A DNA stretch of 64,000 nt from Arthrobacter sp. B3I9 (GTDB taxonomy: Bacteria; Actinomycetota; Actinomycetes; Actinomycetales; Micrococcaceae), in the NCBI RefSeq assembly GCF_030816935.1, contig NZ_JAUSYO010000001.1, positions 806,001-870,000 of the forward strand, read 5' to 3'. The notes below the pieces were generated by a model. That model did no database searches. It saw nothing but the letters and a program-made list of their open reading frames with translations, and was not told the DNA's origin. The position numbers and the translations under genes were made by a program. Shown here one piece after another: positions 60,560-64,000 of this stretch; the first letter of the stretch is position 1, and the number at the start of each line of letters is the position of its first letter.

Positions 60560-61039
60560 TCAGGCGGTGTGGGCGTATCCTTCACGGATCCAGGTGAGCA
60601 GTTCGGCGTCGATCTCTGCGGGGTTCTTCAGGATCACTTCGTTGTGCCAACGGTTGGCCGACACACGCTCAGCGCGGTGAATCCGTGCCGATTCGAGTTC
60701 CCTGGTCAGAACAATGTTGATCAGGATCCCGCCACGGCGGGGATGGACACCGAGAAACGCTCGTCCGTGAGCAATGTGGAATGACGACGCGTTCTCCTGC
60801 AGCTCACACCCGTCCAGCTCAAATACCTTGTCCATAAGCGAGCTGTAAACGCGGGACGAAATTGGATCACTATCAATGCGTTCTCTTGCCGTGCGAGCCA
60901 TCCAGCCAGCATAAGGCAGAGCGATACAGCGCTCTTCCTCAGTCGAAAGGTATGTCCCTGAGTCTTGAAACGCTATGGATACCGTGACAGTCGCGCTTCG
61001 AGACCCTCTTCGGGTGGATGGCTGTCCAACATATGCCAT
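60560..61039 (-). CDS. Protein with a DUF5655-like C-terminal domain (159 aa)
   Basis: A 159-residue protein. The C-terminal 75 residues (FHIAHGRAFLGVHPRRGGIL, INIVLTRELESARIHRAERV, ANRWHNEVILKNPAEIDAEL) look like the DUF5655 domain, a family of unknown function with a small alpha/beta fold. The N-terminal 45 residues are less like coding sequence; an internal ATG at 60901 would give 113 residues. ATG 61039 has AGG close upstream. The whole segment 60.4-61.3 kb is less GC-biased in third positions than the rest. Confidence 0.6.
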   Translation of the reverse strand: MAYVGQPSTRRGSRSATVTVSIAFQDSGTYLSTEEERCIALPYAGWMARTARERIDSDPISSRVYSSLMDKVFELDGCELQENASSFHIAHGRAFLGVHPRRGGILINIVLTRELESARIHRAERVSANRWHNEVILKNPAEIDAELLTWIREGYAHTA

Positions 61040-61052
61040 TCACCTGAGAGCA

Positions 61053-61310
61053 CTAGAAAGATCTCCAAATCTGGCCTCTCGAGGGCGGCGAAAATAATCC
61101 GTCAATAAACACCGCCTGAGTCCTGGTAAGCCGTTCCTGGGCCTTTGATATAGGCACGGGCAGGGCCAGCGGGGCCCGGCCGGAAAGGCTTTCCAAAAGT
61201 GCGTGGAGGTGGGCTGGCAGATGCGGTGGGCTGGTGATCTTGGCTGTCCGTGCGAGGGCGGTGTAGGACCCAAAGACGTAGCGTTCCACGGTTTCGGGGT
61301 TAGTTGATGC
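61053..61310 (-). pseudogene. Remnant of an arsenate-reductase-type three-helix-bundle domain
   Basis: Directly behind the stop of the ArsO-like gene, in another frame, the minus strand reads NPETVERYVFGSYTALARTA, then KITSPPHLPAHLHALLES. The first 20 residues are strongly reminiscent of the N-terminal three-helix-bundle dimerisation domain of actinobacterial arsenate reductases (usual pattern ETVERYVFESYTALARTA). No start codon or preceding helix is present and nothing like the phosphatase core follows, so it seems to be a broken fragment rather than a gene. A frame extends to 61418 but only by overlapping ArsO. Low-to-moderate confidence. Confidence 0.45.
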
Positions 61311-62628
61311 CGGAGCGGCCGTGCGCCAGGCCTGTTGGGAAGCCGACCAGCACGGGTTCGGGGACGTCGCAGCTGGTGCCGGCGTCGGTGGAGCAGACGC
61401 CGGTTTCGGGGAGCTCAAGCTGCACGGTGTCCGCGGCTTCGCGGTCCCCGGCCAGGGCGGCGACGACGGAGCGGACCTGTTCGTAGCCGGTGGCCAGCAG
61501 GAACGTAGGTGCGCGGCCGTAGGATTTCATGCCCACGATGTAGAAGTCTTTGTCCGGGTGGGCCAGGAGCTGAGCACCGTGGGGCGGGACGGTGCCGCAG
61601 GAGTGGAACTCCGGATCGATCAGGGGGCCCAGTTCCATGGGTGCTTCGACGGCGGGGTCGAGGTTGAGCCGGAGTTCGCGCAGTATCTCCAGGTCCGGGC
61701 GGAAGCCGGTGCAGGGGACGATGACGTCAGCCTCGAGAGTCCGGCCGTCGACGGCTTTGACGCTCAGATGGGAGTCGAGGTTCTTGAGGGCGCTGATGCC
61801 GAAGCTGGTGTGCAGTTCGATTTTGCCTGCGTCGACCAGCCGCCTGACCCGGGAGCCGAGCTGGCCGCGCGCGGGGAGCCCGTCCGCGTCGCCGCCGCCG
61901 TAGACCTTCTCGGCAGACGGGCCACGGACCGCCCACAGGATCCGGGTGTTCGGCTCTTCCTTGGCGAGTTCGGCAAGGTTGATGAGGGTGCTGGCCGCTG
62001 AGTGGCCGGCGCCGACCACCAGGACGCGGCGACCGGCGAAGGTTGCCCGGTCGCGTCCGGTGACGTCCGGCAGCGGCGCGGAGATCCGGCCCGCTGCCGC
62101 GTCTTCCCCAAGCGCGGGCAGGCCGGAGGTGCCCAGCGGGTTGCGGTTGGACCAGGTGCCGGAGGCATCAATGACTGCGGCGACGATGTGGTCGCGGGTT
62201 TCACCGTCGGCGTGCTTGACCCTGACGGTGAAGGGTGCGGTGCCGCGGTCTTTGATGTGGGTTTTGTCCATGCCCTGACGGGTGACGGCCACGACGCGGG
62301 CTCCGGTCTGGAGTCGCTGTGCTATCTGCGGGAGCGAGGCCAGGGGCGCGAGGTAGTTATCAATCAGCTCCCCGCCGTACGGGAGTGCGGTGGGCCGGGG
62401 TGATTGCCAGCCGGTGGCTTCGAGGAGGCGGACGGCGGCGGCGTCAAGGTTGAAGCGCCAGGGTGAGAACAGCCGGATGTGACGCCACTGCTCGATGGCT
62501 GCTGCGGCCGCAGGGCCCGCTTCGAAGACCAGCGGTTCAAGTCCGCGTTCGAGCAGGTGGGCCGCGGCCGCCAGGCCCACGGGGCCGGCACCGATCACTG
62601 CAACAGGAAGGCTTTTCGCTGATTCCAT
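61300..62628 (-). CDS. FAD/NAD(P)-binding flavoprotein (ArsO-like)
   Basis: A 442-residue flavin-dependent oxidoreductase. LPVAVIGAGPVGLAAAAHLL is the FAD-binding motif, RRVLVVGAGHSAASTLINLA the NAD(P) site, and VIVPCTGFRPDLEILREL plus DFYIVGMKSYGRAPTFLLAT are usual for the ArsO group found in arsenic-resistance operons. Its exact reaction is unknown. The ATG at 62628 follows AGAAGAGG. It is the last intact gene of the arsC-trxB-peptide-ArsO run. A hairpin separates it from the cysteine-rich micro-ORF. Confidence 0.85.
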   Translation of the reverse strand: MESAKSLPVAVIGAGPVGLAAAAHLLERGLEPLVFEAGPAAAAAIEQWRHIRLFSPWRFNLDAAAVRLLEATGWQSPRPTALPYGGELIDNYLAPLASLPQIAQRLQTGARVVAVTRQGMDKTHIKDRGTAPFTVRVKHADGETRDHIVAAVIDASGTWSNRNPLGTSGLPALGEDAAAGRISAPLPDVTGRDRATFAGRRVLVVGAGHSAASTLINLAELAKEEPNTRILWAVRGPSAEKVYGGGDADGLPARGQLGSRVRRLVDAGKIELHTSFGISALKNLDSHLSVKAVDGRTLEADVIVPCTGFRPDLEILRELRLNLDPAVEAPMELGPLIDPEFHSCGTVPPHGAQLLAHPDKDFYIVGMKSYGRAPTFLLATGYEQVRSVVAALAGDREAADTVQLELPETGVCSTDAGTSCDVPEPVLVGFPTGLAHGRSGIN

Positions 62629-62665: not shown

Positions 62666-62697
62666 CGCCTGCCGGTCCCCTTGGGGTCCGGCAGGCG
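62666..62697 (-). promoter_or_regulatory. Hairpin between the cysteine-rich micro-ORF and the ArsO-like gene
   Basis: CGCCTGCCGG-T-CCCC-TT-GGGG-T-CCGGCAGGCG makes a 10-bp stem, one mismatch and a further 4-bp stem with a 2-nt loop. There is no U-run behind it on the minus strand. It could protect the 3' end of the upstream mRNA, slow read-through into the ArsO-like gene, or attenuate it. Confidence 0.5.
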
Positions 62698-62704
62698 GCG
62701 GAGG

Positions 62705-62761
62705 CTAGCAGCAGTCCTCGTCGTCGCAGCAGTCGTTGTCGCCGCAGCATCCTGTCGTCAT
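62705..62761 (-). CDS. Cysteine-rich acidic micro-protein (18 aa) in the arsenic/thioredoxin cluster
   Basis: An 18-residue frame, MTTGCCGDNDCCDDEDCC, lies 26 nt behind trxB on the same strand. Its ATG is preceded by a near-perfect ribosome binding site (GGGAGGAGGTG with AGGAGG 8 nt away), stronger than those of its neighbours, which argues that it is translated. Six of 18 residues are cysteines, as three Cys-Cys pairs at 5-6, 11-12 and 17-18, exactly six residues apart; six more are Asp or Glu. Such vicinal thiols can bind As(III) or soft metals, and the flanking genes are arsC, trxB and an ArsO-like gene. I know of no family with this sequence; the function is inferred. A longer frame to 63169 just shadows trxB. 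Confidence 0.6.
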   Translation of the reverse strand: MTTGCCGDNDCCDDEDCC

Positions 62762-62787
62762 TGCGCTCACCTCCTCCCAAGCTCGGG

Positions 62788-63795
62788 TTATGCGTGCGTG
62801 GGTTCTTCCACCAAGGCGGTGGCGATGCTGTCCGCATCCTCTAACGCAGCCAGGTAGCGTTCGGCGTCCAGGGCCGCAGCGCAGCCGGTGCCGGCGGCGG
62901 TGATGGCCTGGCGGTAGCGGTGGTCCACGGCGTCGCCGCAGGCGAAGACGCCGGAGAGGTTGGTGACGGTGGTGGGTGAGTCCACCTTGATGTAGCCGTC
63001 CTCGTCCAGGTCCACCTGCCCGGTCAGCAGCTCGGTGCGCGGCACGTGGCCGATCGCCACGAAGATGCCGGTCGCGGCCTGGTGCCGGGTTTCCCCGGTG
63101 ACAGTGTCGGTCAGGGTGACGCCGGTGACCTTGCCGTCGCCGTGGATGGCGGTGACGGCGGAGTTCCACGCGAAGCTGATCTTGGGGTTGTCCTTGGCCC
63201 GCTGCGCCATGATGCGGGAGGCGCGCAGTTCGTCCTTGCGCACGACGACGGTGACGGTCTTTCCGAACCGGGTCAGGAAGGTGGCTTCCTCCATGGCGGA
63301 GTCACCGCCCCCGACGACGATGATGTCCTGCTCGCGGAAGAAGAACCCGTCGCAGGTGGCACACCAGGAGACGCCGTGGCCGGAAAACTTCTTCTCCTCC
63401 GGCAGGCCGAGTTCCTTGTAGGCGGAGCCGGTGGCAAGGATGACCGCCGGGGCCTGGTGGGTCTCGCCGCCGCCGGTAACGACCGTCTTCAGGTGGCCTT
63501 TCAGCTGGACTTCTGTGACGTCGTCGAACACGACCTTGGCGCCGAACTTCTCGGCCTGCTCCTGCAGCCCGTCCATCAGTTCCGGGCCCTGGACGCCACC
63601 GGGGAAGCCGGGAAAGTTCTCCACCTCGGTGGTGTTCATCAAGGCACCGCCTGCGGTGACGGAACCGGCCAGCACCAGCGGGGCGAGGCCTGCGCGGGCG
63701 GCGTAGATGGCGGCGGTGTAGCCGGCCGGGCCGGAGCCGATGATGATCAGCTGCTCGGTGGTGGCGGCCGCGGGGGTGGCGTTGTTGCTGCTCAC
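62788..63795 (-). CDS. trxB: Thioredoxin-disulfide reductase
   Basis: A 335-residue flavoenzyme that reduces thioredoxin with NADPH. FAD-binding [19 protein letters not shown] at residues 19-36, redox-active SWCATCDG with Cys145 and Cys148, NADP site [19 protein letters not shown] and the C-terminal [19 protein letters not shown]. Length is normal. It sits 28 bp behind arsC; thioredoxin-coupled arsenate reductases need this enzyme, so it is probably a dedicated copy. It might also keep the cysteine-rich peptide reduced. Confidence 0.95.
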
Positions 63796-63823: not shown

Positions 63824-64000
63824 CTACTTGGCGGCGGGGATGAGGGAGTCGATCAGGCCCTCGATGCGGGTCTTGATCTCGTCGCGGATCGGGCGGACGG
63901 AGTCGACGCCCTTGCCGGCCGGGTCCTCCAGGACCCAGTCCTCGTAACGCTTGCCCGGGAAGTAGGGGCACTCGTCGCCGCAGCCCATGGTGATCACCAC
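63824..64000 (-). CDS. arsC: Arsenate reductase, low-molecular-weight phosphatase type, C-terminal part (cut by window end)
   Basis: The minus-strand frame from the right edge to the TAG at 63824-63826 reads [20 protein letters not shown], then [20 protein letters not shown] and [32 protein letters not shown] holds the C-terminal cysteine pair and [10 protein letters not shown] the conserved aspartate of the thioredoxin-coupled ArsC family, which reduces arsenate to arsenite. Only 58 residues are in the window. It is the most upstream visible gene of the cluster. Confidence 0.9.

Follow-up and report, generated by a model that had tools for sequence, protein, structure and literature searches.

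An overlooked micro-ORF in Arthrobacter arsenic-resistance operons encodes a cysteine-pair peptide, a candidate ligand for arsenite

In an arsenic-resistance (ars) cluster of Arthrobacter sp. B3I9, an 18-residue peptide with three vicinal cysteine pairs is encoded by a micro-ORF which, judged by its relatives in other genomes, is a genuine gene overlooked by annotation. The comparison of these relatives shows that the gene is conserved, that its coding content is constrained, that it sits in ars operons and that it is independent of the flavoprotein gene that often follows it; we infer its translation, the binding of As(III) or another soft metal, and a phenotype of the peptide. The explanation that we prefer, with slightly better than even confidence, is an independent ars accessory gene, whose free peptide would bind As(III) or another soft metal via its vicinal thiols. 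Its length, below what gene callers commonly admit, would explain why the micro-ORF has been overlooked, and no report was recognised as describing the peptide in the open literature, the scope of the search, with most subscription papers outside it.

The window, that is, the whole stretch of 64,000 nucleotides analysed, carries the micro-ORF on the minus strand at 62705..62761 (ATG at 62761-62759, TAG at 62707-62705), reading MTTGCCGDNDCCDDEDCC followed by the TAG stop, while the plus strand of the same interval translates as LAAVLVVAAVVVAAASCRH. A first-pass annotation of this DNA had described, without naming the strand, an ATG that follows trxB by 26 nt and has an excellent ribosome binding site, and cysteines at positions 5-6, 11-12 and 17-18. 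Both descriptions hold for the minus strand, where the ribosome binding site GGGAGGAGGTGAG lies at 62766..62778 and 26 nt separate the trxB stop from the ATG. Directly upstream, trxB (62788..63795, minus strand) encodes a thioredoxin-disulfide reductase (TIGR01292, 388.6 bits against a cut-off of 343.45), itself preceded by arsC (63824..64000, minus strand), an arsenate reductase with the low-molecular-weight phosphatase fold (Pfam LMWPc, 81.4 bits). This arsC extends beyond the end of the window and is complete in another stretch, L215:325-747; the NCBIfam arsenate reductase models match it below their cut-offs, and its plasmid relatives are annotated as ArsC. On the 3' side, a G+C-rich hairpin of 13 pairs with no T run occupies 62666..62697 (minus strand), the flavoprotein gene begins 76 nt after the micro-ORF, and micro-ORF and spacer fold together at -50.3 kcal/mol (z -3.0); a scan of this 3' hairpin for terminator-like sites gave none.

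The window has 263 ORFs of 12-30 codons that start with ATG. A Shine-Dalgarno (SD)-like site precedes 34 of them, and the micro-ORF alone combines such a site with at least six cysteines, the other short ORF with six cysteines (4756, plus strand) being without one. When a profile built from 21 members, among them the peptide of the window, was run on the 4.12 Mb source genome, the micro-ORF was its single match at E values up to 10 (E 5e-5). No family was matched in an NCBIfam search with a doubled copy of the 18-residue peptide.

All DNA collected yielded 74 distinct loci, the window's counted, with 66 distinct peptides, so that the frame is kept in related ars clusters, which was the check proposed at first pass. 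The peptides have 17-26 residues, besides one shortened copy of 12, and three CC pairs are present in 57 of the 66, with linkers mostly of 3-6 residues. In this set, pre-filtered for a final CC and at least two acidic residues, acidic residues make up 45% of the non-cysteine positions, hydrophobic ones 4% and basic ones 1.5%, compared to 5%, 46% and 17% in the short ATG ORFs of the window. The cysteine pairs and acidic linkers noticed in the single sequence are, as seen here, the conserved elements. Cysteine amounts to 32.5% of the residues after the first (57 distinct peptides from 63 loci), a figure of which only the margin is informative, as the ORF filter demanded at least 15% Cys and at least four Cys. 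The small size and high cysteine content (at least 15%) that mark the metallothionein class are both found in the peptide. In the set of 63, where the ending was not required, every peptide closes with Cys-Cys-stop, and each of the three stop codons occurs; exceptions outside this set are L331, ending in CS, and L292, where the frame is present and the stop is lost. The sequence GG(A/G)GGTGA-N5-ATG is present in at least 50 of the 63 relatives.

Regarding the coding content, 3 of the 246 cysteine codons compared between nearest neighbours had changed. The dN/dS-like ratio, taken as nonsynonymous to synonymous change against the neutral count, was 0.37 for 40 overlapping nearest pairs and 0.60 (p=0.057) for 18 disjoint pairs, which points to moderate purifying selection in what is a very short gene. 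Equal frequencies of both kinds of change had been named as a refutation; the direction came out in favour of selection, but on the disjoint pairs its strength is only moderate. In 400 random pairs, mean identity was 76% in the ORF versus 60% in the 3' spacer, and the ORF was the more similar part in 345. The ORF changes its length by whole codons, a regularity that is partly circular as the ORF filter imposes the frame, and the spacer lengths are spread evenly over the three classes modulo 3 (19, 23 and 21). Several loci document changes of the repeat: L213 has lost one CC unit by an apparent deletion between TGCTGC repeats and retains the CC-stop end, L327 has duplicated the CCGDSG unit, giving the peptide MTTGCCGDSGCCGDSGCCDDDQDCC with eight cysteines, and in L276 the ORF is deleted while its ribosome site persists. 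In L331, where the flavoprotein match is split over two frames, the peptide has drifted to MENRCCTGTGCCDDDPGCS.

The distribution was followed along the flavoprotein, the peptide profile and a nucleotide pattern. Just upstream of the flavoprotein's relatives, the micro-ORF was found in 24 of 29 (25 of 30 loci with the window's own), a biased sample consisting of the best flavoprotein matches; in the 24 it is always preceded by a G-rich SD-like site, and the peptides are, for example, MNTGCCGDSGCCDDDQDCC and MDTGCCTDNGCCEDESCTDQDCC. Among these first 30 flavoprotein loci it is missing in L006, L015, L016, L020 and L025. A pattern scan of the genome_contigs collection (84,980 species genomes), fixing only the ribosome binding site, the ATG and Gly-Cys-Cys, yielded 71 stretches, 37 of which continue as the micro-ORF peptide (in L138 the stretch ends after ten residues of it) and 34 as nothing similar. 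All of the 37 are named Arthrobacter, Pseudarthrobacter or Paenarthrobacter, and the other 34 belong to other taxa. Outside these three genera, two more genera of the family each contributed a single genome with a copy, intact in G340 (genus g7, by the profile search) and diverged in G420 (genus g24, located via the flavoprotein). In the loci of other families of the phylum (L050-L077), the micro-ORF was not found. Copies on plasmids are present within the ars clusters of five Arthrobacter and Paenarthrobacter records, one of them shortened; in these records, whose gene table is itself incomplete, the frame has no annotated feature, in agreement with the earlier suggestion that standard gene callers miss such frames.

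The profile searches were less sensitive. At the genus level, 52 of 198 genomes were matched and the source genome itself, without a candidate at the first-look stage, was missed, which makes absences based on the profile weak. At the family level (295 genomes), 18 matched at E up to 1, three of which were accepted (G000, G340 and G187), the remaining 15 being partial (E 0.08-0.93), and the search missed G133, G144 and G420 despite their true copies. At the order level (297 genomes), there was one weak match (E 0.047) inside a 334-residue open frame, and viral_contigs gave one match, judged as chance.

The placement in an ars operon, read from a single cluster at first pass, turned out to be general: 73 of the 74 loci have an ars-cluster gene no more than 2.5 kb away on the strand of the micro-ORF, and the 74th has no upstream DNA in its stretch. 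For 72 of the 74, the closest gene upstream is trxB or arsC; it is arsC in 26. With x for the micro-ORF, the layouts are arsC-x-flavoprotein, arsC-trxB-x-flavoprotein, arsR-aqp-arsC-x, ACR3-arsC-trxB-x and arsR-aqp-x-flavoprotein-arsC-trxB; the genes of L049 run arsR, MIP-type channel, micro-ORF, flavoprotein, arsC and trxB. The identity of the channel relies on a MIP match of 56 bits, below the cut-off, and on the annotation of plasmid relatives, and the channel gene of L216 was identified by its tblastn match to that of L325, while ACR3 of L327 scores 425 bits, above the cut-off. Upstream of arsC, past the window (L215), there are an ArsR/phosphatase fusion, an ArsN1-like GNAT and a protein weakly like DinB. 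The GNAT (L215:2817-3326) matches the arsinothricin resistance family A with 117 bits against a cut-off of 170, and its presence beside the cluster suggests exposure to organoarsenical antibiotics (for arsN1, see PMC6465285).

The flavoprotein is a FAD/NAD(P) oxidoreductase of 442 aa (61300..62628, minus strand), remotely ArsO-like and with cysteines in its C-terminal tail. The label ArsO-like given to it at first pass promises too much, as it scores 59.7 bits against the curated cut-off of 425 of NF040505, and by this model it is not ArsO. On a Streptomyces FR-008 plasmid, a gene annotated as ArsO family and a separate relative of the window flavoprotein (52% identical) are both present. The best solved relative of the window flavoprotein is a monooxygenase (E 2.7e-10, residues 7-222), and none is close. 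This gene is the commonest downstream neighbour of the micro-ORF, present in 68 of the 74 loci (65 before L003/L158, L121 and L125/L253 were added). Conversely, where a flavoprotein locus includes upstream sequence, the micro-ORF is present in 63 of 141 and absent, according to the filter, from 78 (L292 among them); these counts are not a frequency, as some loci were collected because they carry the pattern. On these loci, the micro-ORF is dispensable.

At six loci the micro-ORF is intact, and the 2.5 kb that follow it give no same-strand match to the flavoprotein. In L216 the order is arsR, MIP-type channel, arsC and micro-ORF, followed by an inverted repeat and a convergent ORF. L325 and L326 have arsR, MIP-type channel, arsC and micro-ORF, then short remnants read by eye as fragments of the flavoprotein or of a second arsC. 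L203 has trxB, the micro-ORF and a remnant read as arsC-like, the stretch of L149 does not include the upstream side, and L327 has ACR3, arsC, trxB and the micro-ORF, closed by a 20-pair terminator with a T run. No strong flavoprotein match is present genome-wide in G022 (L325), G152 (L326) and G153 (L327), the best E values being 1.3e-4 to 9.7e-4, while the list of genomes with a flavoprotein match does not contain G340 (L216). As L325, L326 and L203 bear what was read by eye as deletion scars of the flavoprotein region, persistence without the flavoprotein may be short-lived there and its loss recent. The first-pass annotation had also considered that the peptide hands arsenite over to the flavoprotein, which does not agree with intact copies without a flavoprotein behind them and with flavoproteins that often lack the peptide. 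A dedicated partnership was rejected because the micro-ORF and the flavoprotein each occur alone; as far as the loci go, the ars operon, and not the flavoprotein, is the constant company of the micro-ORF.

The same loci bear on a regulatory explanation, in which the micro-ORF would be a cysteine-responsive leader peptide, with ribosomes stalling at its Cys codons and thereby switching a hairpin or a Rho-dependent terminator before the flavoprotein gene; scarce charged Cys-tRNA or free cysteine, as arsenite titrates thiols, would be the trigger. We regard both this role and this trigger as unlikely, despite several features in accordance with it. The Cys-Cys-stop ending is invariant in the set of 63, and candidate cysteine leaders of actinobacteria have several Cys codons in a row close to the stop (PMC1262725). 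The spacers to the flavoprotein gene fold below -12 kcal/mol in 59 of 63 relatives (raw energies, without shuffled comparison), and in a Bacillus ars operon an internal hairpin lowers the transcription of the genes downstream of it (PMC4562236). On the other hand, the fold is weak in 4 of the 63 spacers and the hairpins belong to at least two unrelated sequence kinds, most relatives having either the window type or an unrelated one behind the micro-ORF. In addition, the flavoprotein is present in other loci and missing behind the six intact copies, one of which (L327) is closed by its own terminator and has even gained two cysteines; three separated CC pairs with acidic linkers are kept, which stalling would not need; and the micro-ORF takes an internal or final position in operons rather than the first. 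A classical attenuator is not favoured, given the spacer folds and the copies with nothing behind. Quite possibly, the hairpin restricts how much read-through reaches the flavoprotein gene, so that more peptide than flavoprotein would be made.

Since intact copies exist with nothing behind them, the peptide itself is argued to be the product that matters. In the preferred explanation, that of a thiol peptide for arsenite, the micro-ORF would be translated at a high rate together with arsC and trxB, and the thiols of the peptide would be held reduced by the thioredoxin or mycothiol systems. As(III) binds two or three thiolates, and the reduced thiols could bind the As(III) that ArsC produces from arsenate in the cytosol, so that a soluble acidic polythiol translated from ArsC's own mRNA would buffer or carry arsenite until it exits via ACR3 or the aquaglyceroporin-like (MIP-type) channel, in the manner of a phytochelatin encoded by a gene or of the vicinal cysteines in ArsD. 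A bolder form of this proposal, advanced tentatively and rather doubtful in our estimate, is that the peptide could be the smallest arsenic-resistance protein so far, a ribosomal phytochelatin-like peptide taking arsenite from ArsC to ACR3 or the aquaglyceroporin, with a capacity tuned by the gain and loss of CC-acid units.

The same thiol chemistry would serve a peptide of metallothionein type whose ligand is a different soft metal (Cd, Zn, Cu or Pb) and which happens to ride in ars operons, and about 5-6 kb upstream of arsC there are genes for a CDF-like exporter and a CmtR-like Cd/Pb regulator, neither of which reaches its curated cut-off. This is a little less likely than a leader peptide; against it, 73 of 74 copies are beside an ars-cluster gene, and no copy was met beside metal exporters alone in searches that started from the flavoprotein, from the profile and from one pattern. 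Less likely again is a dithiol redox shuttle, reduced by TrxB or mycoredoxin and giving electrons to ArsC or acting as co-substrate of arsenate reductase: trxB or arsC as the closest upstream gene would fit it, but copies without an adjoining trxB are common (those 26 loci with arsC closest) and the cysteines are paired, not in the CxxC arrangement of redoxins. Very improbable is a RiPP precursor that the flavoprotein modifies into a cysteine-derived chelator; a flavin enzyme is indeed the commonest downstream neighbour, but the peptides have no leader region within their few residues, and copies without the flavoprotein exist. The weakest explanation, chance or a non-coding repeat, deserves almost no credence: TGCTGC/GAC repeats are simple sequence prone to in-frame slippage, as in L213 and L327, but conservation, the ribosome site and the taxonomic split speak against it, and a chance origin is ruled out in this comparison because the micro-ORF is conserved in other genomes.

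Several known systems come close to the peptide. ArsD, whose vicinal cysteine pairs act as arsenite carriers, is a folded protein of more than 100 residues that serves ArsA. The peptide shares with it vicinal cysteine pairs in an ars operon, but the full ArsD domain is absent, 18 residues being too short for such a fold. In E. coli ArsD, the pairs are C-terminal (PMC4562236). By annotation only, no arsA is named in the five annotated plasmid clusters of Arthrobacter and Paenarthrobacter. Phytochelatins, (gamma-Glu-Cys)n-Gly, are short, alternate acid and cysteine and bind arsenite and Cd; like them, the peptide is short and made of acid and cysteine, but they are produced by an enzyme from glutathione and have single cysteines, whereas the peptide is gene-encoded and has paired ones. 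The bacterial metallothioneins MymT and SmtA are likewise small and very cysteine-rich, and the peptide is, like them, a presumed metal ligand; unlike it, they are longer (about 50 residues or more), have another cysteine spacing and form a folded cluster. Mycobacterial cysteine leader peptides were reportedly found to be leaderless by Canestrari et al. in 2020, in contrast to the micro-ORF with its strong ribosome site and three spaced CC pairs. The predicted actinobacterial cysteine leaders are, like the micro-ORF, short ORFs with Cys codons before the stop (PMC1262725), but they stand at the head of cysteine-metabolism operons, whereas the micro-ORF is internal or terminal in ars operons; cysteine-rich regulatory sORFs are also discussed for Mycobacterium (PMC9094748). 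Finally, tetracysteine tags resemble the peptide in their paired cysteines: CC-x-CC tags bind arsenic via neighbouring thiols, CCXXCC peptides holding biarsenicals with neighbouring cysteines on the arsenic atoms (PMC11561763). Such tags are designed and have two pairs with a two-residue linker, while the peptide usually has three pairs and mostly longer linkers.

If the peptide binds arsenite, it would be a new part of one of the best-studied metal-resistance systems, present in many sequenced genomes of the Arthrobacter type, and an 18-residue, probably unfolded peptide could be a selected product of a resistance operon. It would also be the natural counterpart of the engineered tetracysteine tags and a simple gene-encoded ligand with which arsenic could be sensed or removed. 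Natural variants for testing are available in the repeat gain of L327, the repeat loss of L213, the stop loss of L292 and the clean deletion of L276.

Further observations concern the surroundings of the micro-ORF. In relatives, the interval between trxB or arsC and the flavoprotein gene often contains a large palindromic element, CCCAACTAGGTAGC...GCTACCTAGTTGGG, whether or not the micro-ORF is present; it was seen in the spacers of L004, L008, L009, L010, L013, L015, L025 and others; its first arm is not present in the window at up to 2 mismatches. The C-terminal tail of the flavoprotein is variable, with recurring cysteines (LPETGVC...SC...CC) across families, and is reminiscent of the vicinal cysteines at the C-terminal end of mercuric reductase. 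A CC pair is found in this tail in most relatives and not in the window copy; tails without CC occur in 6 of 61 loci with the micro-ORF versus 1 of 68 without it (Fisher p=0.052), a comparison that leaves out loci without a complete tail and from which no claim is drawn. Behind the flavoprotein gene, a minus-strand ORF of 159 residues (60560-61039) has no NCBIfam match. In L215, soft-metal motifs resembling the peptide occur as protein tails: the CDF-like exporter (L215:5439-6290) has CC, DDCC and CCDDC in an acidic context in its tail, and the CmtR-like regulator beside it ends in CCAPDGTCFA.
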